Origin: Planctomycetota bacterium
Lineage (GTDB): Bacteria; Planctomycetota; Phycisphaerae; Phycisphaerales; Phycisphaeraceae
NCBI GenBank assembly: GCA_024276075.1
Contig: JAJRXX010000022.1
Coordinates: forward strand, 1 to 37,798
Direction of reading: 5' to 3'
Length of the DNA stretch: 37,798 bases
Shown one piece after another: positions 3,922-37,798 of this stretch; the stretch's first letter is position 1; each line of letters begins with the position of its first letter. A program made the position numbers and the translations under genes. The notes beneath the pieces were generated by a model. The model had not been told where the DNA came from. It saw only the letters and a program-made list of their open reading frames with translations, and ran no database searches.

Positions 3922-4052
3922 GTCACTTCTTCTTTTTTAATGTTAAATTCCGTTGACAAAATATCTATTTCCTCTCGATGGGCCGCGGGTATCTGGGGCT
4001 AATTTTACTAAAATTGTACGCACTCCACTGTTTAAGAGACGGTTTTGTTTAT

Positions 4053-4294
4053 GCCCCGCGTGGGTCACGCGGGGCTAAATGGGGGAATTGGTGTGTGCGG
4101 AGAGAATACACGGCTTCCCCGCCTTCGACGTGTGAAGCCGTGGCACCCGGGCCACGCTTTCAAAAGCATGAATCAGCACACTGGTTGCAAGCAACCCGTG
4201 CCACCCAGACGGAAGCGGTCCGCACAGCGGACCCTACAACTTTGGGCGGCGCGGGGTTGTGGTGCCGGATGCCACGGGTGTATTCACCCGTGGC
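4053..4294. repeat. Cluster of five different palindromic (REP-like) units
   Basis: The non-coding gap 3922-4310 is mostly hairpins. The arms are GCCCCGCGTG/CACGCGGGGC (4053-4075), CACGGCTTC/GAAGCCGTG (4109-4142), GGTTGC/GCAACC (4183-4196), GGTCCGC/GCGGACC (4217-4233) and GCCACGGGTG/CACCCGTGGC (4271-4294). The second and third are followed by GTGGCACCC or GTGCCACCC; the first and last by CTAAAT. The same units recur at 22739-22838 and 26490-26510, and related ones sit inside the small inverted-repeat elements at 19271 and 20422. No gene is seen here. Confidence 0.85.
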
Positions 4295-4310
4295 TAAATA
4301 TCCACCCTAC

Positions 4311-7709: not shown

Positions 7710-8501
7710 CTAGAGATCATCGATGCTCCATTCGCCCCTTCTAAAGTAAATTTCATCAATGATTTTGGCGGAGTATTTGCCTAGAGGCTCTTCATCGAGC
7801 AGGAAAAAATGCTGGTCTCTGTCTGGGCAATACTTGTAACTCCAAGACCTTTGAAGGTTGTTCTTTATGAAGCGGGCGTTGGCTGTTCTCCCATCAACTA
7901 CAATAATTGTTTTTGGCGTGAGGAAGTGTTCTAACTTCAACACGTCGCAAGCCATCGGCATCATATCTTTGTGCCGCGTGCTCCAGCCATTGACTTCGCT
8001 GTTCACAGAAAACTGATCGGGTGCATCAAGGTATATGAAGTCTGGATTTATAAGGGGGAGTTTTTCATACTCCGTGGCTATTCGGCCGTTCCACATGACC
8101 ATATTCACCGCTGAATAATGGAACGCAACATATTTCTCAAGCGACCTGTCGATCCTGGACTTTGCTAGCTCGATGTATTTTTTTTGATTATCGACGCAGT
8201 GGCATTCGTACGGATTATTCCGCCGATAGTTAGATAAGCTCCCTGCCGCTTCTTCCACTTTTCTCAACGACGCGGCGAACAGCATGCTGCTCCATCCGCA
8301 TCCGAACTCAAGTATTGTCGTTCTTGACGTTTTTTGAATAAGCTGGTGAAGAGAGGCCAAATCATCTAGTTCGGGTCGATAGGGAGAAACTTGCTCAAGC
8401 TTAGCGTTTACACCAGCCGCGGATTCTTTTGATGGACCTATCAACGACGTCAGGCCGAGCCCAGTCAATATAGTTTGATTATCCATACGCTGATCGTCCA
8501 T
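7710..8501 (-). CDS. Class I SAM-dependent methyltransferase-like protein of the glycan cluster
   Basis: A 263-residue protein with a Rossmann-type SAM motif ILEFGCGWSSM (63-73), an acidic second-strand region (ECHCVDNQ, 99-106), FIYLDAPD (155-162) and VVDGR (201-205). This layout is seen in small-molecule and sugar methyltransferases and in uncharacterised proteins of polysaccharide clusters. The start ATG at 8501 lies only about ten bases from a perfect minus-strand TATAAT, so a leaderless or near-leaderless mRNA is possible; ATG at 8486 is the alternative. AT content looks higher than in its neighbours, which may indicate transfer. Substrate unknown; catalysis is inferred from the fold only. 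Confidence 0.65.
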   Translation of the reverse strand: MDDQRMDNQTILTGLGLTSLIGPSKESAAGVNAKLEQVSPYRPELDDLASLHQLIQKTSRTTILEFGCGWSSMLFAASLRKVEEAAGSLSNYRRNNPYECHCVDNQKKYIELAKSRIDRSLEKYVAFHYSAVNMVMWNGRIATEYEKLPLINPDFIYLDAPDQFSVNSEVNGWSTRHKDMMPMACDVLKLEHFLTPKTIIVVDGRTANARFIKNNLQRSWSYKYCPDRDQHFFLLDEEPLGKYSAKIIDEIYFRRGEWSIDDL

Positions 8502-10144: not shown

Positions 10145-10289
10145 GATGGACGCTATTTTAGTCGCTCACGCCGATCGGCGACGATCCTCGCTGTTTGGCA
10201 GGGAAATCCGATTGTGGATCAGCTTGAATATTTTGGCGGGAATTGTCGTTCGAAACATTGGCGACAAGGGGTTTTCACAGCAGAAAAGG

Positions 10290-10316
10290 CCCGCTCCCTG
10301 ACGGTCGCGGCTCGTT
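10290..10316. repeat. Dispersed repeat, GCTCCCTGACGGTCGCGGCT type
   Basis: The core CCCGCTCCCTGACGGTCGCG continues into GCTCGTT. A near-identical copy is at 31123-31150. Diverged copies lie inside the elements at 18895-18999 (opposite strand) and 32870-33013. The arms CCGC and GCGG allow a weak hairpin. No gene is visible in 10145-10384. Confidence 0.7.
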
Positions 10317-10384
10317 GCGGTGCTCGATGAGGCATGCTGGCTTGGTTGAATCTCATTTTGTGAGACACTCTACGTAGGATCGCT

Positions 10385-18999: not shown

Positions 19000-19265
19000 G
19001 AGGATCATTGCGGCTTGTACCCAGCGTTGTACGCGTCGTTGGGACGTTGCTTGTGAAGGTTTCGATGTCGTTGAGTAGCTGTTCGATGGCGTCACTACGC
19101 AACCGTCGGCTAAACGTGGAGATCGACGGCAACGGACATTCGGCCAGCGCACAGGGGGTATTGCGACGATCACAAGCCCAACTCAATGGGCGTCTACATA
19201 CGACCGACCACAGGTAGAGCGTCGTGATCAACGCGTCGTGATATTGTTGCCGTTTGCCGCGTCGC
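19000..19265 (-). pseudogene. Transposase fragment (N-terminal part only)
   Basis: The minus-strand frame from about 19265 down reads RRGKRQQYHDALITTLYLWS, then RRPLSWACDRRN and PSISTFSRRLRSDAIEQLL. This resembles the N-terminal region of IS4/DUF772-like transposases common in planctomycetes, where a helix-turn-helix segment with S-x-S-T-x-S-R-R-L precedes the catalytic domain. Only about 90 codons remain; the DDE catalytic part is absent. The fragment is bounded on its right by the 126-bp element at 19271-19396 and on its left by the 105-bp element at 18895-18999. The continuous open frame to 18923 and up to 19369 simply reads through these elements. Family assignment is tentative. Confidence 0.5.
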
Positions 19266-19270
19266 GGTGC

Positions 19271-19396
19271 TAGAGCAACTGGCGTCAATATCCGCCATTT
19301 TGATTGGATCGCAGGTGTAACAGACATCTGTATTTCACGGCTTGCAAGCAAGCCGTGCCACCCGGTCAATGAAGATTAATGACGCCAGTTGCTCTA
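19271..19396. mobile_element. 126-bp MITE-like element, copy 1
   Basis: Terminal inverted repeats TAGAGCAACTGGCGTCA (19271-19287) and its exact complement (19380-19396); five more flanking bases on each side (GGTGC/GCACC) also pair. Inside is a hairpin with arms CACGGCTTGC (19336-19345) and GCAAGCCGTG (19348-19357), followed by CCACCC. Copy 2 at 20422-20547 has exactly the same length and the same hairpin. Confidence 0.85.
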
Positions 19397-19474
19397 GCAC
19401 CGCATGATCCACGCGGGATATATTTTAATATGTAAATTTGGGCTACAATCAACCATTGCACCCTACCATCACCC

Positions 19475-20389: not shown

Positions 20390-20986
20390 AGTATTTTCAT
20401 ATTTGGTTGCCAATCCTGCGTTAGAGCAACTGGCGTCAATGTTCTCCATCTTGATTGGATCACAGGTGTAACAGACATCAGTATCTCACGGCTTGCAAGC
20501 AAGCCGTGCCACCCGGTCAATGGAGATTAATTACGCCAAGTGCTCTAGACGCGCAATCTTTTGCCAGTGATACCCGTTGCGTTCATAACGACCCACGCGC
20601 GTAAGCCAGTGGGTTCTTCCACGGGCAATCTACAGCCGGAAATCGATGACGCCAAACGCTCTAGCAGATCAACTGCTGGGGTGTAACACTACCGGGCATC
20701 GACCCACGCATTCTACTCCCCTAAGCAAAACCATCCTCACCACCCAGATCGATCGGAATCGCTAAGCCCCCAGCCACGGCTCCGACCCCAAAATAAGTCT
20801 TCGTGAAAACCCGCTGTTGTGGTATATTGGTGACACCAATTGCGGGGGGGCCGCTACCGCACCGTGAGGTGTGAAAACCGTGATGAAAGCAAACGTACCG
20901 TTCAGCGTAGATCGCGATTAAGGCAAAACACCAACCGCTTGCCTTTGTCTTATACCGCACACGTTGTCGCAACTTTGGAGAAAGTG
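20390..20986. other. Repeat-rich gap before the collar-domain gene
   Basis: After the pseudouridine synthase stop comes a TATTTTCATATTTGGTTGCC segment that resembles one at 32843-32869, then the second 126-bp element. A solo right end of the same family follows (TGACGCCAAACGCTCTA, 20647-20663). A weak -10 (TATATT, 20823-20828) may serve the gene at 20987. No coding region is supported; the frame extending the next gene upstream to 20840 lacks coding character. Confidence 0.6.
20422..20547. mobile_element. 126-bp MITE-like element, copy 2
   Basis: The left end TAGAGCAACTGGCGTCA and the inverted right end TTACGCCAAGTGCTCTA bound a sequence equal in length to copy 1. Internal landmarks are shared: TTGATTGGATC, ACAGGTGTAACAGACATC and the CACGGCTTGC/GCAAGCCGTG hairpin. 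The two copies frame the pseudouridine synthase gene in the same orientation. Confidence 0.85.
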
Positions 20987-22432
20987 ATGCACCGCACAAT
21001 CTTTTGTACCCTCCTGACCACCGCTATCTCATTCCAGCCCGCATCCTCGCTCGCTCAGACCGCCCCCTCCGGCACAACCGGTGGCAGTCAATCATTCGAC
21101 AACTTCCAACCCTCGCTGGCACTAAACTACTTCATACCCACCCAGGGCACCTTTCCTTCACGCAGCGGCTCAAACCCGTCCGAGATGCTCCTTGGCAACG
21201 TACGTATGTTTGCTGGGAATTTCGTCCCTGGTGGATCGTTGTCAACCGACGGCCGGTTGCTCAACATCGCCAACAACTCAGCGTTGTTCTCCCTACTGGG
21301 CACGACCTACGGCGGCGACGGACGCACGACCTTTGCACTGCCTGATCTGCGTGGCCGAACAGCTGTGCACGCTGGCACGGGACCGGGGCTTACCCGCATG
21401 CGCCTCGGCGAAAAGCCGGGCAACGCAACCGTCACACTCACTCAAAACCAACTACCCGCACACGCACACGCGCTGCCAGCACCAGCGAACACCACAGGTG
21501 CCACAGGCGCCAGTCAACCGTTCGACAACAGACAGCCCTCACTTGGTCTGAACTACTTAATCAACATAAGCAACGGACTCTTCCCTTCTCGAAGCGGCGG
21601 CAGCTCGACCGGTGGCCAAGCGTTTCTTGGACAGGTATCGCTTTTCGCAGGCAACTTCGCGCCCGCAGGATGGGCGTTGGCTGACGGGCAGTTGCTCCCG
21701 ATTTCACAGTTCCAAGCGTTGTTCTCCCTAATGGGCACAACCTACAGCGGCGACGGACGTACAACCTTTGCACTGCCTGATTTGCGTGGTCGCACACCCG
21801 TCCACGCCGGCACAGGCCCGGGCCTCTCTCGTGTGCGCCTAGGCGAAAAGCTCGGTTCCGACAATATCACCCTCACACAAGCCCAGATGCCTTCACACAA
21901 CCATTCCGTGCCACCCGAGACCAATATCCCAGTCACCGTCACAGACCCCGCCGGCGGCGGCCAGCTTTTCGACAACCGCCAGCCCGGCCTAGGAATCAAC
22001 CACATCATCGCACTATCTGGAATCTTCCCCTCCACCTCCGGCCAAATCGGCGGTGAAACGGTCCTGGGCGAGATCGCCCTATTTGCAGGCAACTTCGCAC
22101 CCGCAGGATGGGCATTCGCCGACGGTCAACTGCTCTCGATTTCGCAGTCCTCAGCATTGTTCTCCCTACTGGGCACGACCTACGGCGGCGACGGACGCAC
22201 GACCTTTGCACTGCCTGATCTGCGTGGCCGAACAGCCATTGACGCGGGATCGGGACCTTTGGGAAACTTCCAATTGGGTCAGAAATTCGGCAACGAAAAC
22301 GTCACACTCACCGAGTCCCAACTCCCAGCACACTCCCATTCGGTCCCCATCATCCCCGAGCCTTCCACACTCGCCTTCGTCATTGTTAGCTTGTTCGCAA
22401 CCCTATCAAGACGACGAAAACACTCCCGATAG
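20987..22432 (+). CDS. Exported protein with three phage-tail-collar domains and a PEP-CTERM anchor
   Basis: A 481-residue protein of unknown role, probably on the cell surface. The start is ATG 20987, with GGAG six bases upstream, giving a signal peptide (MHRTIFCTLLTTAISFQPAS, cleavage near SLAQ). Three tandem repeats at about 34-163, 176-308 and 325-454 each contain FAGNF.P, DGxLLxIS/ANxxALFSLLGTTY, GGDGRTTFALPDLRGR and a closing LTxxQ(L/M)P(A/S)H(A/S/N)H. This is the tail-collar fold seen in phage tail fibres and in microcystin-dependent (MdpB-like) proteins. The last 25 residues form a PEP-CTERM tail: IPEPSTLAF, a hydrophobic helix, then RRRKHSR, which predicts exosortase-dependent sorting. 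The coding strand is C-rich like the upstream gene. There is no phage context, so a domesticated or host adhesin-like role is an inference. Confidence 0.85.
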   Translation: MHRTIFCTLLTTAISFQPASSLAQTAPSGTTGGSQSFDNFQPSLALNYFIPTQGTFPSRSGSNPSEMLLGNVRMFAGNFVPGGSLSTDGRLLNIANNSALFSLLGTTYGGDGRTTFALPDLRGRTAVHAGTGPGLTRMRLGEKPGNATVTLTQNQLPAHAHALPAPANTTGATGASQPFDNRQPSLGLNYLINISNGLFPSRSGGSSTGGQAFLGQVSLFAGNFAPAGWALADGQLLPISQFQALFSLMGTTYSGDGRTTFALPDLRGRTPVHAGTGPGLSRVRLGEKLGSDNITLTQAQMPSHNHSVPPETNIPVTVTDPAGGGQLFDNRQPGLGINHIIALSGIFPSTSGQIGGETVLGEIALFAGNFAPAGWAFADGQLLSISQSSALFSLLGTTYGGDGRTTFALPDLRGRTAIDAGSGPLGNFQLGQKFGNENVTLTESQLPAHSHSVPIIPEPSTLAFVIVSLFATLSRRRKHSR

Positions 22433-22827
22433 CAACCCGTCATACGCTGCCATCGGACAAACTGCCACGCCACCAATCCCATAAATGATTGTCGCAACAT
22501 TCTCGTATGCGGGAATAAGCCAAACAATGACTCATGCACATTCATCTTAGTTTCAGCGCGTCGTACGGCGCTTGTTATACGCATGGCGTATAGTTCTAGC
22601 GCGTTGTAAAGGATGTAAGAGATTGCCTGTTTTGCCTTTGCGTTCGCAGATGCCGCGCAAGTACCAATCTTGATTGGTATGATGGGTTGTCTACAGATTG
22701 TGTTCGTCATGGTGCTGGGCCTACACGCTAGCTTCCCACACGGGTTGCAAGCAACCCGTGATACCCGGCGTTGAACCAGTCGGAGTGGTCCGCACAGCGG
22801 ACCCTACGCGTGTATGCCCCGCGTGTA
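22433..22827. other. Non-coding gap with a 106-bp repeat and palindromes
   Basis: Between the convergent collar gene and glcF. It contains the 106-bp repeat (22575-22680) and the palindrome cluster starting at 22739. No gene is supported on either strand. Confidence 0.6.
22575..22680. repeat. 106-bp dispersed repeat, copy 1
   Basis: Begins TTATACGCATGGCGTATAG, with arms ATACGC and GCGTAT, and ends with the perfect inverted repeat ACCAATC (22663-22669) / GATTGGT (22672-22678). Copies of the same length lie at 30292-30397 and 30968-31073, and a degenerate one at 30099-30203. On the minus strand the copies remain open, with a shared reading of the type AKAKQ, YILYNALELYAMRIT. Confidence 0.85.
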
Positions 22828-22838
22828 TCACGCGGAGC
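22739..22838. repeat. Cluster of three palindromic (REP-like) units reaching into glcF
   Basis: Arms CACGGGTTGC/GCAACCCGTG (22739-22760), GGTCCGC/GCGGACC (22787-22803) and GCCCCGCGTG/CACGCGGAGC (22816-22838, one mismatch). All three unit types also occur at 4053-4233. The last overlaps the final codons and the stop of glcF (stop at 22828-22830). Confidence 0.85.
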
Positions 22839-24288
22839 TAAGTGGGACGGTTGGTGTGCCGAAGTATGCTTTGTGCAGGAGTGTGACGGGGTGCAGGACG
22901 GTGAGGGGGGTGCCCAGGCGTTCGGCTTCGGATTTGATTTGCATGGCGCAGCCGACGTTGCCTGTGACGCAGACGCGGGAATTGGTCTCCTGGATGCGCT
23001 GCACTTTTCGCTGGCCTAGTTGTGCGGCCATGGCGGGTTGTGTGAGGTTGTACGAGCCGGCGGCGCCGCAACACATGTCGGACTCGGGCAGCGGTGTGAG
23101 CGTCAGATTTTCGATCCAGCTGAGGACTTGGCGGGGTGGTGCGACGACCTGTTGGGCGTGTGCGAGGTGGCAGGGGTCGTGGTAGGTGGCGGTGGTTAAA
23201 TGTGGGGGCAGGAGATGCGTGGGCCGGGGTGGGTCGAGTGTTACGAGTAGCTCGGAGATGTCGCGGACGCGTGAGGCGAAGTCGCGGGCGCGGTCGGCGT
23301 AGACGGGATCGTCGCGCAGGAGGTGTGGGTATTGCTTTAGCATGGCGCCGCAGCCTGCGATGTGGTTGACGATGTATTGGTCGTGGGGTTGGTCGGTGTG
23401 GGCTGTTTTGAGGAATGCGTCGATGTTGGCGCGTGCGAGTGCTTTGGCGTGTTCGACGTGGCCGGCGTGGTGGTGCAGGGCGCCGCAGCAAAGTTGCGTG
23501 CGGGGTACAGCGACGTCGCAGCGGGCGTGACGCAGCAAGTCGATGGCTTGACGGTTAATGTCCTGAAACAGGACGCTTCCGATGCATCCTGTGAACAGGC
23601 TAGCGGTTGCTTTGCGTGTTGCGTCGGGTGCATCGGCGGCGGGGTAATGGTGGTCTAAGTCGGGTTCCCAGAGGGTGCTTTGGGTCGGGAGGGTGCGCAT
23701 CATTTTGAGTAGTGGTGTGGGTATGACGCGGCTGATCGGTGGTTTGGTTAGTCGTTGCCAAAGGCGCAGTTTTTGTAAGAGTCTGGCGGGGAAGATTACG
23801 AGCTTCAGGCGTGGCGGGTAGGGCAGGACGTGGAGGGTGATGGCGCGTACGAGTTTGTCGGCGAGGGTTTGTATGGTCGGCGTTGCGGTGCTCGGTGGTG
23901 TTGAGGTCAGGCGTGTGCGAGTTTCTTCGATCAATTCGTGGTAGACGACGCCCGAGGGGCAGGCGGTCTCGCAGGCGTGGCAGTCGAGGCAGAGGTCGAG
24001 GTGATGGGCGACGGGTGGTGTGAGCTCGATGCGCCCGTCGGCGAGGGCTTTGATGAGTCGGATGCGCCCGCGTGGTGAGTCTGTTTCGAGGCCTGTGGTG
24101 ATATAGGTTGGGCAGGCGGGCAGGCACAGGCCACATTGGACGCAATCCAGGGCGCGGTTATACGTGCGGGGGTCGAGTTTTAGTGCGGGTGGTCTTTGCG
24201 GCGCATCGTCGTCGTGTGGGTTGGGATGGGTTGCGGTTCCCAGGCCTGAGACGGTATGCGTGGGTTTGGGGTGGGTGGGTGTGGTCAT
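22828..24288 (-). CDS. glcF: Glycolate oxidase iron-sulfur subunit
   Basis: Electron-transfer subunit of glycolate oxidase (GlcDEF), which oxidises glycolate to glyoxylate at the membrane. The 486 residues start with a low-complexity Pro/Thr/His tail (1-35). Two 4Fe-4S motifs follow, CVQCGLCLPACP (Cys49, 52, 55, 59) and CLDCHACETACP (Cys100, 103, 106, 110), then two CCG-type domains with CCGALHHHAG and MCCGAAGSYNL. The start is ATG 24288, whose ATGA overlaps the glcE stop; a much longer open frame to 24981 only shadows glcE. The last ten residues (GTPTVPLSSA) and the TGA stop are written by a palindromic repeat also found at 4053. Coding-strand composition is C-rich, matching glcE. Confidence 0.93.
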   Translation of the reverse strand: MTTPTHPKPTHTVSGLGTATHPNPHDDDAPQRPPALKLDPRTYNRALDCVQCGLCLPACPTYITTGLETDSPRGRIRLIKALADGRIELTPPVAHHLDLCLDCHACETACPSGVVYHELIEETRTRLTSTPPSTATPTIQTLADKLVRAITLHVLPYPPRLKLVIFPARLLQKLRLWQRLTKPPISRVIPTPLLKMMRTLPTQSTLWEPDLDHHYPAADAPDATRKATASLFTGCIGSVLFQDINRQAIDLLRHARCDVAVPRTQLCCGALHHHAGHVEHAKALARANIDAFLKTAHTDQPHDQYIVNHIAGCGAMLKQYPHLLRDDPVYADRARDFASRVRDISELLVTLDPPRPTHLLPPHLTTATYHDPCHLAHAQQVVAPPRQVLSWIENLTLTPLPESDMCCGAAGSYNLTQPAMAAQLGQRKVQRIQETNSRVCVTGNVGCAMQIKSEAERLGTPLTVLHPVTLLHKAYFGTPTVPLSSA

Positions 24289-25475
24289 TGTTGTGCTGTG
24301 ATGAATCGGCCTGGGTTGAATAGGTTGTGCGGATCCATTGCGTGTTTTAGCTTTGTGAGTGTGGCGCGGTCGGTCAATGCGGGTGGCCAAGGGTCGATTG
24401 ATTGGGTGCCCGTTGGTCTGGCGTACCAGATGCGTAGGCCGCCGACGGATGCTGCGAGTTGTGATGTGTGCAGGTCGAGCTTGTGGGCTGAATCGGCGTC
24501 GAGGTCGCCCCCGGCGAAGACGCGGCCGTGCGCGGGCAGGGCGTCGATTTGCAGGGTGGTGTAGGTTGTGGCCCATTGTGATAGCTGGCGGCAGACGGCT
24601 CCGGTGGCTGCGAGTGGGACGATGAGTTTGACGAGTGCGGGCGTGTGACGTCGCCATTGAGATCGTCGGGTGCGCTGCTGTGCGTCTTGATCGAGCGTGG
24701 TTTCCTGGGTGCGGTCGATTTTGAGTTCGGGTGCGAATCGGTTGAGGAACGTTTCGAGTGCGTTGCTTTGCGCGCGGCATCCGGCGGTGTGGCCGAAGTA
24801 GGCTAGGTGTACTCGCCAGTGGTTTGCTTGGGCGTGTAGTGCGAGGTGTACGGGGCCAACGTCGGAGACGAGCAGGTCGGTTGTGATGGCGTCGAGCCGA
24901 CGTGGTGTGTCGATGGAGAGTTCGACTGATAGAACGGTTTGGGGGATGGCGGAGGTTCGGAGTGTGGCTTCGTAGATGCATCCGAGCTCGCCGAGGCTGC
25001 CGACCATGAGGCGGGTGACGTCGTACCCGGCGACGTTTTTAACGGTTCGCCCGCCGACGTGGATGTCTCGGCTGTGGCCGTCGATGTAGCGGAGGCCTAG
25101 GAGCAGGTCGCGCATGGCCCCGAAGCCGACTCGCAATGGGCCGAAGACGTTGTGCGTGATGACCTCGCCTAGGGTCATGTCGTCGTGCGCGTCGATCGGC
25201 AGGAACTGGTTCGATTTTTTTAGTGTGGCTTGAAGCTTGGCGATGGTCGTGCCGGCTTCGACGCGGACGACCAAGTCGCGGTCGTAGTGCTCGATGGTGT
25301 TGTTTTGGAGGATTAGCTGGATGTGATCAGGGGGTGGTGGGTGTCCGAGCGTTTTGTGTGCGTGGCCGTAGTCTACGATCGGTGTTCTTTGGGCGGTACA
25401 GCGCTGGACCAGTTCGATGATCTGAGCGGGCTGGTTGGCGGTGACGGTTGTGTTTTCTGTCAAGGGTTTGGGCAT
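24285..25475 (-). CDS. glcE: Glycolate oxidase FAD-binding subunit GlcE
   Basis: A 396-residue FAD-linked oxidoreductase of the PCMH/FAD_binding_4 type, partner of GlcD and GlcF. The FAD domain (about 15-190) shows LVVRVEAGTTIAKLQATL, LGEVITHNVFGPLRVGFG (the family usually has a Gly-rich stretch here), and GGRTVKNVAGYDVTRLMVGS, which is typical of GlcE. The C-terminal part ends NLFNPGRF, as in glycolate/lactate oxidase subunits. Its stop overlaps the glcF start by four bases, so the two are coupled. No glcD lies upstream; the next gene is divergent from 25611. Either GlcD is encoded elsewhere or the pair works with another flavoprotein. The ATG at 25475 is chosen; no clear promoter was recognised in the 135-bp divergent gap. 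Confidence 0.9.
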   Translation of the reverse strand: MPKPLTENTTVTANQPAQIIELVQRCTAQRTPIVDYGHAHKTLGHPPPPDHIQLILQNNTIEHYDRDLVVRVEAGTTIAKLQATLKKSNQFLPIDAHDDMTLGEVITHNVFGPLRVGFGAMRDLLLGLRYIDGHSRDIHVGGRTVKNVAGYDVTRLMVGSLGELGCIYEATLRTSAIPQTVLSVELSIDTPRRLDAITTDLLVSDVGPVHLALHAQANHWRVHLAYFGHTAGCRAQSNALETFLNRFAPELKIDRTQETTLDQDAQQRTRRSQWRRHTPALVKLIVPLAATGAVCRQLSQWATTYTTLQIDALPAHGRVFAGGDLDADSAHKLDLHTSQLAASVGGLRIWYARPTGTQSIDPWPPALTDRATLTKLKHAMDPHNLFNPGRFITAQQ

Positions 25476-25610
25476 GGCGCGTAGTCTGTCGAGTGACGCG
25501 GTGCTGATACGGTCATGATAGCGGGGCGTGGTCGATGATACGCAGTGATTGTGGGGGTCGCCCAGTGGTGTGGCCCAGCGAATTGTGTCGTCTGGGTTAA
25601 ACTCACTGTT

Positions 25611-26513
25611 ATGGATAGGCCCATGGAGCTAACGAGTATTGATAACCCGCGTGTGAAGGGTGTGGTGAGACTTCGGCGTCAGTGGGAGCGAAGGCGGTCG
25701 GGGCTGTTCATTGCGGAGGGTGAGCGAGAGGTTTCGCGTGCTCTGGAGGCGGGTCTAGGGTTGCGGGGACTGTATCTGTGCGCGGAGATGCTCGGCTCGG
25801 ACGGGGAGCGTCGGTGGTCAGCGAATCGAGAGAGGGTTGAAGGTCAGGGGTCGGCTGTGGTATTTGGTGTGACCGCGCCGCTGATGACGAAGATGGCGTA
25901 CCGGCAAAACCCAGAGGGTTTGCTTGGTGTGTTTGAGCAACCTGTTTGGCGGTTGGCGGACTTGCCGGCTCGTGGTGAGGGGCAAGGTGAGGTTGACCTG
26001 TGGCTGGTGACGGTGGGGACACAGAAGCCTGGTAATCTTGGTGCCATGGCGCGCAGCGCTGTAGCTGCAGGGTGCAAGGGTTTGCTGGTCTGCGACGGTG
26101 TGGTCGATGCGTTTAACCCGAACGCGATTCGTGCGAGCACGGGCGCGGTATTTGAATTGCCTGTGGTAGCGGAATCGACGCAGGGGGTGTTGGCGTTTTT
26201 GCGGGGTCGGGGTGTTCGGGTGGTGGCTGCGAGGCTCGGTGCGGGGGTGTGTTATACCGAGGTTGATCTGACGGGGCCGGTGGCGTTGGTCGTGGGGCCT
26301 GAGGATGAGGGGCTTGATCCGGGTTGGCCGGGTTCTGTGTTGGTGGGTGATGGGGCTGACGAGGCACGGGAGGGTGTGGAATCGGTGGCGATCCCGATGT
26401 GTGGTGGGGTTGTGGATTCGCTCAATGCGTCGGTTGCGGCGGGAGTGTTGCTCTTTGAAGCGGTGCGTCAAAGGCGGGGTGAGGATGTTCCCGCGTGTGT
26501 CACGCGGGGCTAA
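25611..26513 (+). CDS. TrmH/SpoU-family RNA 2'-O-methyltransferase
   Basis: A 300-residue SPOUT-class enzyme that methylates a ribose 2'-OH in rRNA or tRNA using SAM. An N-terminal substrate-binding domain (LTSIDNPRVKGVVRLRRQ, then RRSGLFIAEGEREVSRALEA) is followed by the three SpoU motifs: VTVGTQKPGNLGAMARSA, VALVVGPEDEGLDPGW, and IPMCGGVVDSLNASVAAGVL, which form the trefoil knot. The start is ATG 25611; ATG 25623 (MELTSIDNPRVKG) is also possible, while the frame back to 25545 lacks coding character. The coding strand is very G-rich. The final residues (VPACVTRG) and the TAA stop come from a CCCGCGTG/CACGCGGG palindromic repeat, so the native C-terminus was probably slightly different. The exact RNA target is unknown. 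Confidence 0.92.
   Translation: MDRPMELTSIDNPRVKGVVRLRRQWERRRSGLFIAEGEREVSRALEAGLGLRGLYLCAEMLGSDGERRWSANRERVEGQGSAVVFGVTAPLMTKMAYRQNPEGLLGVFEQPVWRLADLPARGEGQGEVDLWLVTVGTQKPGNLGAMARSAVAAGCKGLLVCDGVVDAFNPNAIRASTGAVFELPVVAESTQGVLAFLRGRGVRVVAARLGAGVCYTEVDLTGPVALVVGPEDEGLDPGWPGSVLVGDGADEAREGVESVAIPMCGGVVDSLNASVAAGVLLFEAVRQRRGEDVPACVTRG
26490..26510. repeat. Palindromic (REP-like) unit at the 3' end of the TrmH-type gene
   Basis: Arms CCCGCGTG (26490-26497) and CACGCGGG (26501-26508), then GCTAAGTGGG. This is the unit seen at 4053-4075 and 22816-22838. Here it lies inside the coding frame, and its TAA (26511-26513) is the stop codon. Confidence 0.85.
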
Positions 26514-26654
26514 GTGGGGTGACGGTGACACTCGGTTCAAACTAGAACACGGCCGAACGTCGGAGGTGGTGATCAGCCATAGCACGGTGTGGGCTGGCGC
26601 GGTAGGATCGGGGTGCTTTTTTCGAGTGGCCGGTTCTAGGCAGAGGTTGTCGCG

Positions 26655-28019
26655 ATGCGCGTGTTTATGCTCGGTTGGGAATTCCCCCCGTATATTGCGG
26701 GCGGGTTGGGTACGGCCTGTTACGGTTTGACGAAGGCGTTGAGCCGGCAGGGTGTGCGGGTGACGTTTGTGTTGCCCAAGGGCGTGGGTACGGACTACAC
26801 GTCGCATGTCCGTTTTCTGTCGTCGGAGTCACAAGATACGAGCGGCGGCGATCGATCGTCTGCGGAAGCGGCGGGAATCTGTGAGTTAGACGGTCCGGCT
26901 GTGGCGGGGGAGTTTGTGAACGTGACGTTTAAGGGTGTAGCGTCGCGTCACATGCATAGCTCTTACCAGTCAACAGGAGGCAATCTGCACACCGGTACGG
27001 TCGGGCAGGTTGGCCAAGTTGGTCGGGTCGTTAGCCGACCTATTGCGATGCGTGCCCAGAGCGAATCGGCTCAATCGGAACCTAGTTATGGCGGTGATAT
27101 CTTTGCTGAGTCGCGGCGGTACGCTCGGGTGTGTGTGGGTCTGGCGCAAGATGACGAATTTGACGTGATCCATGCTCACGATTGGATGACGTTTCCGGCG
27201 GGTATGGCGGTAGCGGCGGCGGCGAGCAGGCCGTTGGTGATTCACGTGCATTCGACCGAGTACGACCGGGCTGGTGAGCAGGCGAATCAGGAAGTGTGTG
27301 ATGTGGAGCGTCGTGGGATGCAGGGTGCGATGCGTGTGATCGCTGTGAGTCATCTGACCAAGTCGATCATTGTGCATCGGTACGGGATCGACCCGGGCAA
27401 GATCGACGTGGTTTACAACGGGATCGAAAACGACAAACGGGGTGAGCCTCAGCCGGCGAGTGTGGCCATTGCCAAGACCGACAAGATTGTGTTGTTTTTG
27501 GGCAGGATCACGATGCAGAAGGGTCCTGAGTATTTCATCGAGGCGGCGAAAAAAGTGTTGGACAAGTTCGACAAGGTCAAGTTTGTGGTTGCGGGTACGG
27601 GCGACAAGACACAGGCGATGATGGACATTGCCGCGAAGCACGGGATTAGCCACAAGGTGTTGTTTACGGGGTTTCTCCGGGGCAGCGATGTGGAGCGGGT
27701 CTTTAAGATGGCGGACGTGTACGTGATGCCCAGCGTGAGCGAGCCGTTTGGCATTGCCCCGCTCGAAGCGATCAGCCACGATGTGCCGGTGATCATTTCA
27801 AAGACTTCGGGGGTCGCTGAGGTGCTGGCGCACGCGCTGAAGGTTGATTTCTGGGACGTGGGTGATATCGCTGACAAGATCCTCGCGGTGCTCAAGCACC
27901 CGCCTCTGAGTTCGACGCTGCGCGAGCACGCGGACCTGGAAATCCGCAAGCTGACCTGGGACGGTGCTGCGAGCCGGTGTCGGCAGGTCTACGAGACGGC
28001 GTTGGGCGCGATGGCTTAA
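26655..28019 (+). CDS. Glycosyltransferase family 4 / glycogen-synthase-like protein
   Basis: A 454-residue GT-B retaining glycosyltransferase. The N-terminus MRVFMLGWEFPPYIAGGLGT is the beginning typical of starch/glycogen-synthase-like and planctomycete GT4 proteins, with the Gly-rich donor loop IAGGLGTA. A less conserved insert (about 55-150) is rich in Gly, Ser and Gln. The C-terminal domain has VLFLGRITMQKGPEYFIEA, VVAGTGDK, VLFTGFLRGSD and MPSVSEPFGIAPLEA, the E-x7-E motif that binds the nucleotide-sugar. It is probably cytoplasmic and could build a storage glucan or modify a glycan; the donor cannot be told from sequence. The ATG at 26655 follows GGCAGAGG-type sequence. It stands alone on its strand, 141 bp after the TrmH-type gene. 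Confidence 0.88.
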   Translation: MRVFMLGWEFPPYIAGGLGTACYGLTKALSRQGVRVTFVLPKGVGTDYTSHVRFLSSESQDTSGGDRSSAEAAGICELDGPAVAGEFVNVTFKGVASRHMHSSYQSTGGNLHTGTVGQVGQVGRVVSRPIAMRAQSESAQSEPSYGGDIFAESRRYARVCVGLAQDDEFDVIHAHDWMTFPAGMAVAAAASRPLVIHVHSTEYDRAGEQANQEVCDVERRGMQGAMRVIAVSHLTKSIIVHRYGIDPGKIDVVYNGIENDKRGEPQPASVAIAKTDKIVLFLGRITMQKGPEYFIEAAKKVLDKFDKVKFVVAGTGDKTQAMMDIAAKHGISHKVLFTGFLRGSDVERVFKMADVYVMPSVSEPFGIAPLEAISHDVPVIISKTSGVAEVLAHALKVDFWDVGDIADKILAVLKHPPLSSTLREHADLEIRKLTWDGAASRCRQVYETALGAMA

Positions 28020-31073: not shown

Positions 31074-31122
31074 TTTTGATACGCATTCCAATGAATTCTC
31101 GTGCTCCAGTCGCAGCAAAGAA

Positions 31123-31150
31123 GCCCGTTCCCTGACGGTCGCGGCTCGTT
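31123..31150. repeat. Dispersed repeat, GCTCCCTGACGGTCGCGGCT type, second copy
   Basis: Reads CCCGTTCCCTGACGGTCGCG then GCTCGTT, one base different from 10290-10316 over the core. The upstream flank CAGCAAAGAAG also resembles CAGCAGAAAAG at the first copy, so the repeat unit is at least 38 bp. Confidence 0.75.
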
Positions 31151-31166
31151 GTGTAAGCACAAGGAT

Positions 31167-31271
31167 TAGAGCAACTTGCGTAATTATTCTCCATCTCCCC
31201 AAGAAGAAGGCAGGTCAATGACCTGCCCTACTCCAGAACTGACATGGCGATTATTTATGCAAGGTGCTCTA
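31167..31271. mobile_element. 105-bp MITE-like element related to the 126-bp family
   Basis: The ends TAGAGCAACTTGCGTAATTA and, inverted, TAGAGCACCTTGCATAAATA match imperfectly over about 28 bp. The interior differs from the 126-bp copies and contains a hairpin with arms GGCAGGT (31209-31215) and ACCTGCC (31221-31227). Same ends with a different cargo hairpin. Confidence 0.7.
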
Positions 31272-32829: not shown

Positions 32830-33508
32830 TCGGGGTTAGGCGTTTTTATATTTGATTGCAGCCCTGCGTTAAAAGCATTTTTCAGTTTCGTGTACGGCAG
32901 TACGGCTTGACGATCGATACGCTCTTTCATGCGGGCCAATTAGAGCCAAAAAACCGCTTGCTGACGCGCGCGGCTCGCTGAGAATCCAGCATGCGAAATC
33001 AGAAAATGCTCTAGGCGTTGGTAGCGCATGGTGCGAGGATATGACGGTTATCGGGGTCGTAGGGGTTGAACGGGTTGTGACGATTGATGGTTGTACGGGG
33101 TAGGGTCGGTGTTTGATTATCAGTTGATTCGACGTGTGTAGACGGGTGATAACAATTGGGCTTATCGGTCTTTTGGGTCTGGATTCGTGGCTAGTGAGGT
33201 CTGAGGCGGTGTCGGGTACGTATCGGTCGCTAGGGTATGCCACACGGTCGTCTATGGGACTGAATCGGCTGAACTTAGGGTATTCCCTGCTTCATTCAAT
33301 AGTTTTAAGTGCCGATCAATATATGCATCCAAAGTGTTGTCCGTGACCGGTCTAGGCTGGTCGAGCCGTTGTGCCCGTGAAGTTGTCAGAACTGTGTTCG
33401 TATATGCGATTTTAGATTTAGGGTAGGCCGTCTCGCGGTGGTGTGATAGGGCGATGTGCTAATAGCACGGCGTCGTGCGTGCGTGGGTTGTCAAGAGGGG
33501 AATTCTTG
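32830..33508. other. Gap between the EAL-HDOD gene and the giant LEPR gene
   Basis: The first part repeats the TTTTTATATTTGATTGC segment also seen after the pseudouridine synthase gene, then comes the 144-bp element (32870-33013). The remaining 495 bp hold no supported gene. A small frame at 33134-33346 lacks a ribosome site. A short palindrome, GTGCTA (33456-33461) / TAGCAC (33463-33468), about 40 bp before the next start could be an operator. Confidence 0.55.
32870..33013. mobile_element. 144-bp MITE-like element, second AGAGCATTTTC-type copy
   Basis: The left end TTAAAAGCATTTTTCAGTTT and the inverted right end CCTAGAGCATTTTCTGATTT pair imperfectly over about 20 bp. The interior carries a diverged GCTTGCTGACGCGCGCGGCT version of the repeat at 10290. 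Compared with 18895-18999 it has the same end type and the same cargo motif in the opposite orientation. Confidence 0.6.

Positions 33509-37798
<4,290 letters not shown>

Follow-up and report, generated by a model that had tools for sequence, protein, structure and literature searches.

Repetitive extragenic palindromes (REPs) are defined in PMC12306157 as palindromic sequences of 14–40 nt with a common motif that occur in many copies, seldom overlap coding sequence and are transcribed, and two super-families, with GTAG and CGTC heads, are described in PMC3733652. In the latter account (Di Nocera et al. 2013), GTAG REP families occur in Planctomycetes, including R. baltica, and their termini often give a TAG stop to flanking open reading frames (ORFs). 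That REPs supply stop codons or C-terminal residues is already in print (PMC3733652), as it is for larger elements (PMC2759123). Here we analyzed a 37,798-nt stretch of a Planctomycetota bacterium from the Phycisphaeraceae (contig JAJRXX010000022.1 of assembly GCA_024276075.1; the window), in which a glcF-like gene and a gene for a TrmH/SpoU-type rRNA methylase (trmH) both end in a copy of one palindromic repeat. This element is very probably a REP-like, non-autonomous repeat that is dispersed in the genome, survives between genes and occasionally caps genes with its own stops. What is new is a TTAG-headed family with lineage-specific stems; we do not claim that the literature lacks TTAG REPs.

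The unit is ~36 nt long, consists of a CCAYTTAG head and a 10-bp GC-rich hairpin, and fits the REP definition in size, palindrome, copy number and rare coding overlap. Like the GTAG REPs of PMC3733652, it is a many-copy short hairpin, one end of which forms a conserved unpaired head, and it is located between convergent or same-direction genes and downstream of coding regions. However, in place of the unpaired GTAG or CGTC end that characterizes the two super-families, 100 of 108 copies carry a TTAG head (CCAYTTAG), and it is by this head that the family is set apart, the stems lying outside the comparison. The stops differ as well: while the termini of GTAG REPs often give TAG, two of the five genic stops found here lie on the head strand (in the loop, in this comparison) and three on the opposite strand. 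ERIC-type (RU) elements fused to gene 3′ ends in enterobacteria (Delihas 2007, PMC2759123) likewise extend a conserved enzyme past its domain and replace its stop, but they measure 103–168 bp, whereas the ~36-nt TTAG unit adds 5–9 residues. The palindromic elements of Rickettsia (cited in PMC3733652 and PMC2759123) are also palindromic repeats read in frame as protein; these are inserted within genes, whereas none of the 108 TTAG copies lies deep in a gene.

A search of the 2.88-Mb genome found 11 exact CCGCGTG-N(1-8)-CACGCGG palindromes and, with the reversed control, 0; the window holds 10 near-matches (5 places, both strands each) against a mean of 2.84 and a maximum of 9 in 100 shuffles. 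A pattern with the head included and 3 mismatches allowed gave 19 places, including stems altered on both sides. A covariance model (R1) was built from 24 copies, and since these include three units of the window, the scores of those three are not independent evidence. Covariation in the stem was seen as 11 cells changed on both sides vs. 2.8 in shuffles (24 sequences, partly chosen by palindrome). The genome-wide R1 search at E up to 1 returned at least 145 matches, with 150 of the 1,496 first-look candidates scored. The sequence read comprised 67 sources (the window and 66 further stretches; 502,892 bases), which were picked for holding copies (three of them for Y1 transposases), so that the densities given below are not genome averages. 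In these, 131 R1 matches were reduced to 108 distinct hairpins by removing 23 overlapping opposite-strand matches, a count that is a lower bound for the copy number given the share of candidates scored. The commonest stem, CCACGGGTG, was found in 52 of the 108 copies. Conservation drops to background ~5 nt beyond the head and the hairpin and the flanks are not conserved overall, which bears out the statement of the first-pass annotation, made from the window alone, that the repeat and not the genes is the common sequence. Such dispersed copies with sharp borders would mark a mobile repeat, whose movement we infer from the sequences.

On the minus strand, the units of the window read CCAYTTAG, then GCCCCGCGTG-ANN-CACGCGGGGC and CAT, with minor departures: the glcF copy contains a U-G pair, and in the trmH copy the outer stem is broken. 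The hairpin at the end of glcF is GCCCCGCGTG-TAT-CACGCGGAGC and holds the TGA stop, as had been annotated, coordinates and translation being in agreement (Table 1). The gene enters the unit with the codons ...CCA CTT AGC TCC GCG TGA and its product ends in ...YFG-TPTVPLSSA; of the ten final residues previously attributed to the unit and its flank, five (PLSSA) certainly come from the genome-wide unit, and nine is the maximum if the flank CACACCAA is counted. If CACACCAA belongs to the unit, the entire non-conserved glcF tail, TPTVPLSSA, would be repeat DNA. The palindrome at the end of trmH, CCCGCGTG-TGT-CACGCGGGGC, encodes the final 8–9 residues and reaches the TAA, again as annotated, the opposite strand of the unit being read as ...GAT GTT CCC GCG TGT GTC ACG CGG GGC TAA (C-terminus ...GEDVPACVTRG). 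The two repeats had been taken to lie in opposite orientation; in fact, three units, these two and a free-standing one, point the same way, with the TTAG head on the minus strand, and it is the genes that run oppositely. The free-standing copy, with GCCCCGCGTGGGTCACGCGGGGCTAAATGG located at 4053, is the same element as proposed, and the sequence CTAAATGGG that it has in common with the others is part of the unit. The GGTGTG flank, also proposed as shared, lies outside the unit genome-wide, where conservation beyond CCA-YTTAG is at background. CACACCAA, which contains the GGTGTG complement, was found within ~20 nt upstream of 3/108 copies, all three in the CGCG-stem subfamily (3/14), and an equal count was reached in 3/500 flank shuffles. 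GGTGTG was rejected as a general part of the repeat because of its background conservation and was kept only as a possible feature of this subfamily.

Table 1. Positions of the repeat units, the gene ends they form and the adjacent hairpins within the window
Feature	Position	Strand	Basis or remark
REP-like unit; encodes glcF ...PLSSA and TGA	22811..22850, hairpin 22816-22838	− (TTAG head)	sequence, R1 match, fold prediction
glcF TGA stop, begins at hairpin loop	22828..22830	−	translation
glcF-like gene, 486 aa from start used	22828..24288	−	4Fe-4S and CCG domains
REP-like unit, other strand read by trmH, outer stem imperfect	26483..26522, palindrome ~26490-26510	−	sequence, R1 match
trmH TAA stop, opposite TTA of TTAG head	26511..26513	+	translation
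TrmH/SpoU-type rRNA methylase gene	25611..26513	+	start from home-made gene finder; longest ORF starts 25545
Free-standing unit, perfect 10-bp stem	4048..4087	−	sequence, R1 match, fold prediction
Second free-standing unit, CCACGGGTG stem; absent from first-pass annotation	4266..4299	−	R1 match; hairpin 15 nt past stop of 4311-5690 gene
Adjacent hairpin, other family, GTAG head, GTAGGGTCCGCTGTGCGGACC, just beyond glcF unit	22787..22807	−	sequence
Adjacent hairpin, family D type, CACGGGTTGCAAGCAACCCGTG	22737..22766		type framing a REP-associated transposase gene elsewhere in genome

Five predicted genes terminate in a unit, with four types of stop on both strands. On the head strand, glcF ends in TGA and a DUF58 gene (L136) in the TAG of the head; on the other strand, trmH and an ORF of 105 aa (L133) end in TAA and a hexapeptide-repeat transferase gene (L142) in TGA. 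Four of the five are supported by a protein family, the L133 ORF being without a Pfam match, and the name glcF rests on the 4Fe-4S and CCG domains together with an FAD-binding neighbor. The unrelated trmH and L133 ORF end alike, in the same frame (GEDVPACVTRG vs. GEDATGVITRG, each followed by the stop). A stop on each strand is present in all 105 full-length copies, compared with 65% of 41-mers from intergenic and 39% of those from coding sequence, and with 56% of shuffled units; as the copies descend from one ancestor, this counts as a single event and not as many independent ones. On the head strand, one frame remains open in 96% of copies, and on the opposite strand two frames do so in 55% and 72%. 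Built-in stops may help the tolerance of units at gene ends; of the first-pass claim that copies are tolerated because each strand offers a stop, the stops themselves stand, whereas it does not follow that they are the cause, given that 65% of random intergenic 41-mers pass the same test.

Gene calls came from a home-made finder, which gave 404 genes and 77% coding sequence and misses at least one plausible ORF (7710-8501). The vast majority of copies (101/108) were intergenic, five overlapped predicted 3′ ends, two overlapped predicted 5′ ends and none was found deep in a gene; trmH and the L133 ORF are counted among the five 3′ cases although their copies were labeled as inside a gene, the hairpin ending just before the stop. 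Another copy, in L163, is 3 nt away from a predicted start. Only four unit centers fall inside any gene, three of them ≤ 11 nt from the stop and the fourth at a distance of 17 nt from a predicted start. Convergent gaps hold 29/96 copies vs. 19% of gap length (p 0.008), tandem gaps 50/96 vs. 58% (p 0.26), and divergent gaps 17/96 vs. 23% (p 0.23). Within tandem gaps the mean relative position was 0.39 vs. 0.50, nearer the end of the upstream gene (n = 49), which was reached by 1/1000 random placements. The density of centers is highest 20–200 nt past stops (1.7–2.1 per kb), compared with 0–1.2 per kb at the same distances before starts, and only two centers lie within 50 nt before a start. At 0–20 nt past stops, where a center means that the unit touches the gene, no enrichment was seen (0.65 per kb). 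The proposed insertion at gene ends thus holds as regards tolerance, with insertion itself being the probable course, but not as regards a preference for ends, and the tabulated positions lean toward 3′ sides without peaking at the ends themselves. The placement of the 108 copies gives no evidence for targeting of gene ends, and the pattern is explicable without it, since it would be enough that selection acts against copies inserted in genes and promoters.

Orthologues of the two genes were searched by protein in 61 genomes, own included, and the tails were examined in the best matches, with weaker matches left out; the orthologues examined come from the same family or order but from different genera. 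Altogether 25 further glcF loci (49–62% identity) and 29 further trmH loci (46–60% identity) were available, the 29th trmH locus being cut by a contig end, which leaves 28 usable for tails. The conserved sequence ends at AYFG in glcF, nine residues before the gene's own stop, and at RQR in trmH. Past this point the tails are unrelated, with lengths of 0–18 residues (median 3) in glcF and 1–21 (median 4.5) in trmH, and a reading of the ends as conserved C-termini was rejected, given that they differ in the 25 glcF and 28 usable trmH orthologues. The comparison of orthologue ends, set beforehand as a possible refutation, found the same final residues without the palindrome in 0/25 glcF and 0/28 trmH. 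No R1 match was found at the gene ends of the 54 loci; the two matches obtained there were one of 24.8 bits ~0.8 kb past a glcF gene and a chance-level one inside a trmH gene.

We propose that the unit spread to at least 100 places in the genome, with relatives carrying related TTTAG-headed hairpins with other stems, and that copies landing deep in genes or just before starts were presumably lost, probably through selection, while those between genes, above all in convergent gaps and downstream of stops, would have survived. A few copies would have hit last codons, where translation would enter the unit for a few codons and halt at a built-in stop, either the TAG or TGA of the head strand or the TAA or TGA of the other strand. 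In this way glcF would have gained 5–9 residues and trmH 8–9, past their conserved folds, in tails that are probably neutral. The units would thus have moved into the genes rather than the genes growing onto them, the mover presumably being a RAYT-type (REP-associated tyrosine transposase) Y1 transposase. Several observations weigh against this reading. Tails as long as that of the gene itself occur without a unit in 5/25 glcF orthologues (≥ 9 residues) and in 4/28 usable trmH orthologues (≥ 12), so that tail length alone is no proof of addition, while tail sequence is. A few copies have longer flanks in common, e.g., four on contig C65, so that some of the copies may not stem from separate insertions. 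No same-genus genome, and hence no empty site for comparison, was among the relatives returned, so that insertion is something we infer. No RAYT of the own genome was seen with the TTAG family on both sides; the one on C65 has a single TTAG-family copy, on its 3′ side only, and its framing pair belongs to family D. The family offers a clean, countable example of small repeats redrawing protein ends and a warning that C-terminal peptides common to annotated genes can be repeat DNA, and its TTAG head would extend the GTAG/CGTC scheme of REPs by one case.

Other explanations were weighed against the same data. A repeat that targets gene 3′ ends, with stop codons evolved for safe landing, would account for the stop on each strand and for the higher density of centers past stops than before starts, but it appears very unlikely: given the common ancestry, the stops weigh as roughly a single case, nearly all copies leave one frame of the head strand open, and centers are not enriched immediately past stops, most copies lying further away. 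It is barely conceivable that the common ends are C-terminal peptides under selection that each gene encodes independently, as the GED...V.TRG ends of trmH and the L133 ORF could suggest, because the same DNA occurs at 101 intergenic places, the five genes read the unit in four frame/strand combinations and hence as different peptides, and no orthologue was seen to keep these residues without the palindrome.

The hairpin could instead be kept for its RNA, as a bidirectional transcription terminator or a 3′-end stabilizer of glcF and trmH, in line with the stable folds predicted at 4043-4092 (z −5.6) and in glcF (z −2.7) and with the enrichment in convergent gaps. We consider this improbable, as the predicted fold in the trmH mRNA segment (z −2.3) differs from the unit hairpin, the unit is absent from the orthologue gene ends examined, a T run is absent on both strands at the units, and terminator calling in 22400-26800 gave five candidate sites (shuffle mean 5.0), none of them at the units 22811-22850 and 26483-26522; for the last two reasons an intrinsic terminator was rejected. 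By analogy with E. coli, where REPs that lie no more than 15 nt from a stop codon are reported to cause ribosome stalling and lower expression (reference 17, as summarized in PMC12306157), units at or near stops might stall ribosomes and reduce expression of their genes, and 14 gene ends (13 copies) lie inside a hairpin or ≤ 15 nt from one. This seems possible but doubtful, since in glcF and trmH the hairpin must be opened before the stop is reached, unlike in the E. coli case, and stalling would in any event be an effect of the unit and not the cause of its presence. A broader version of the dispersed-repeat explanation, which we regard as unlikely, would make the TTTAG-headed hairpins an order-wide REP super-family with genus-specific stems and its own RAYT branch, whose stops, also ending a RAYT-like gene in a relative, would be kept for harmless capping from either strand.

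Among the 61 genomes, R1 matches at E up to 0.001 were found in 11. Some relatives have TTTAG-headed hairpins with their own stems (GCCCCGGGTC in G009 and GCCCGCCGTG in G010), and G006 has the same CGCG stem and at least three pairs in opposite orientation. The hairpin pattern was no commoner than its control in G014 (4 vs. 9) and G002 (8 vs. 12), yet most of the G002 matches are clear palindromes. The own genome yielded four Y1_Tnp matches, two of which, on C7 and C65, are genes framed by inverted pairs of family D hairpins; with the model for REP-associated transposases (NF047646), the C7 gene scored above the cut-off and the C65 and C55 genes below it, and the C55 gene is without a family D frame. 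The framing of RAYT genes by REPs (NF047646; Nunvar et al. 2010, PMC2817692) is matched by these co-resident family D pairs, unlike the TTAG family, which was not found on both sides of an own-genome RAYT. The two framed genes are L035:4329-4998 and L037:3483-4076, with pairs 97% and 100% complementary, and their framing hairpins differ (GGGTGCCACTGGCGG... and GGGTGGCACGGCTTGC...), each gene with its pair being a typical REP-transposase unit. A dedicated transposase for the TTAG family was not found in the own genome. In a scan for TTAG-headed hairpins at 42 transposase loci (L031, L033, L034 and L201-L240 except L213; the fourth own-genome Y1_Tnp match, on C71 inside a 1,294-aa frame, was left out), family-like hairpins were present on both sides of the gene only at L210, while at L034 (the C65 gene) one flank carried a copy of the family and the opposite flank a poor, unrelated match. 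The L210 gene (L210:1282-1790, in G009) is short and Y1/RAYT-like and takes its stop from the TAG of one TTAG-headed hairpin, with more TTAG hairpins on its other side; its NF047646 score of 24.5 is far under the cut-off of 80. The link between the TTAG family and a RAYT is, on this sequence evidence, no more than suggestive.

Copies also occur close to each other and to other hairpins. In the own genome, six neighboring pairs lie < 300 nt apart, one of them inverted, and at L145 a single hairpin has a head at both ends. More than half of the copies (57/108) have a member of four other hairpin families within 150 nt, with 25, 17, 17, and 8 by family vs. 15.0, 8.5, 6.1, and 4.8 around randomly chosen intergenic positions. 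For 22/105 TTAG units (e.g., L170:6108-6172), the ~25 nt upstream contain the word ATTGCAAT, which belongs to a second hairpin (CCACGCATTGCAATGCGTGG), a neighborhood that suggests a mosaic of REPs or a two-hairpin composite element.

Further repeats were noticed in the window. An element of ~140 nt resembling a miniature inverted-repeat transposable element is present at 19264-19405 and 20413-20555, with a partial copy at 31166-31196; the two longer copies are 1.15 kb apart and 90% identical over 134 nt, and the first has 36-nt inverted ends (TAGAGCAACTGGCGTCAAT) and encloses a hairpin of the family D type. Another dispersed repeat, around GCCCGCTCCCTGACGGTCGCGGCTCGTTG, is found at 10284-10317, 31118-31151, and 32947-32980. 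Finally, a large open gene with internal repeats ~183 nt apart occupies 33509-37798 and continues off the end of the window.

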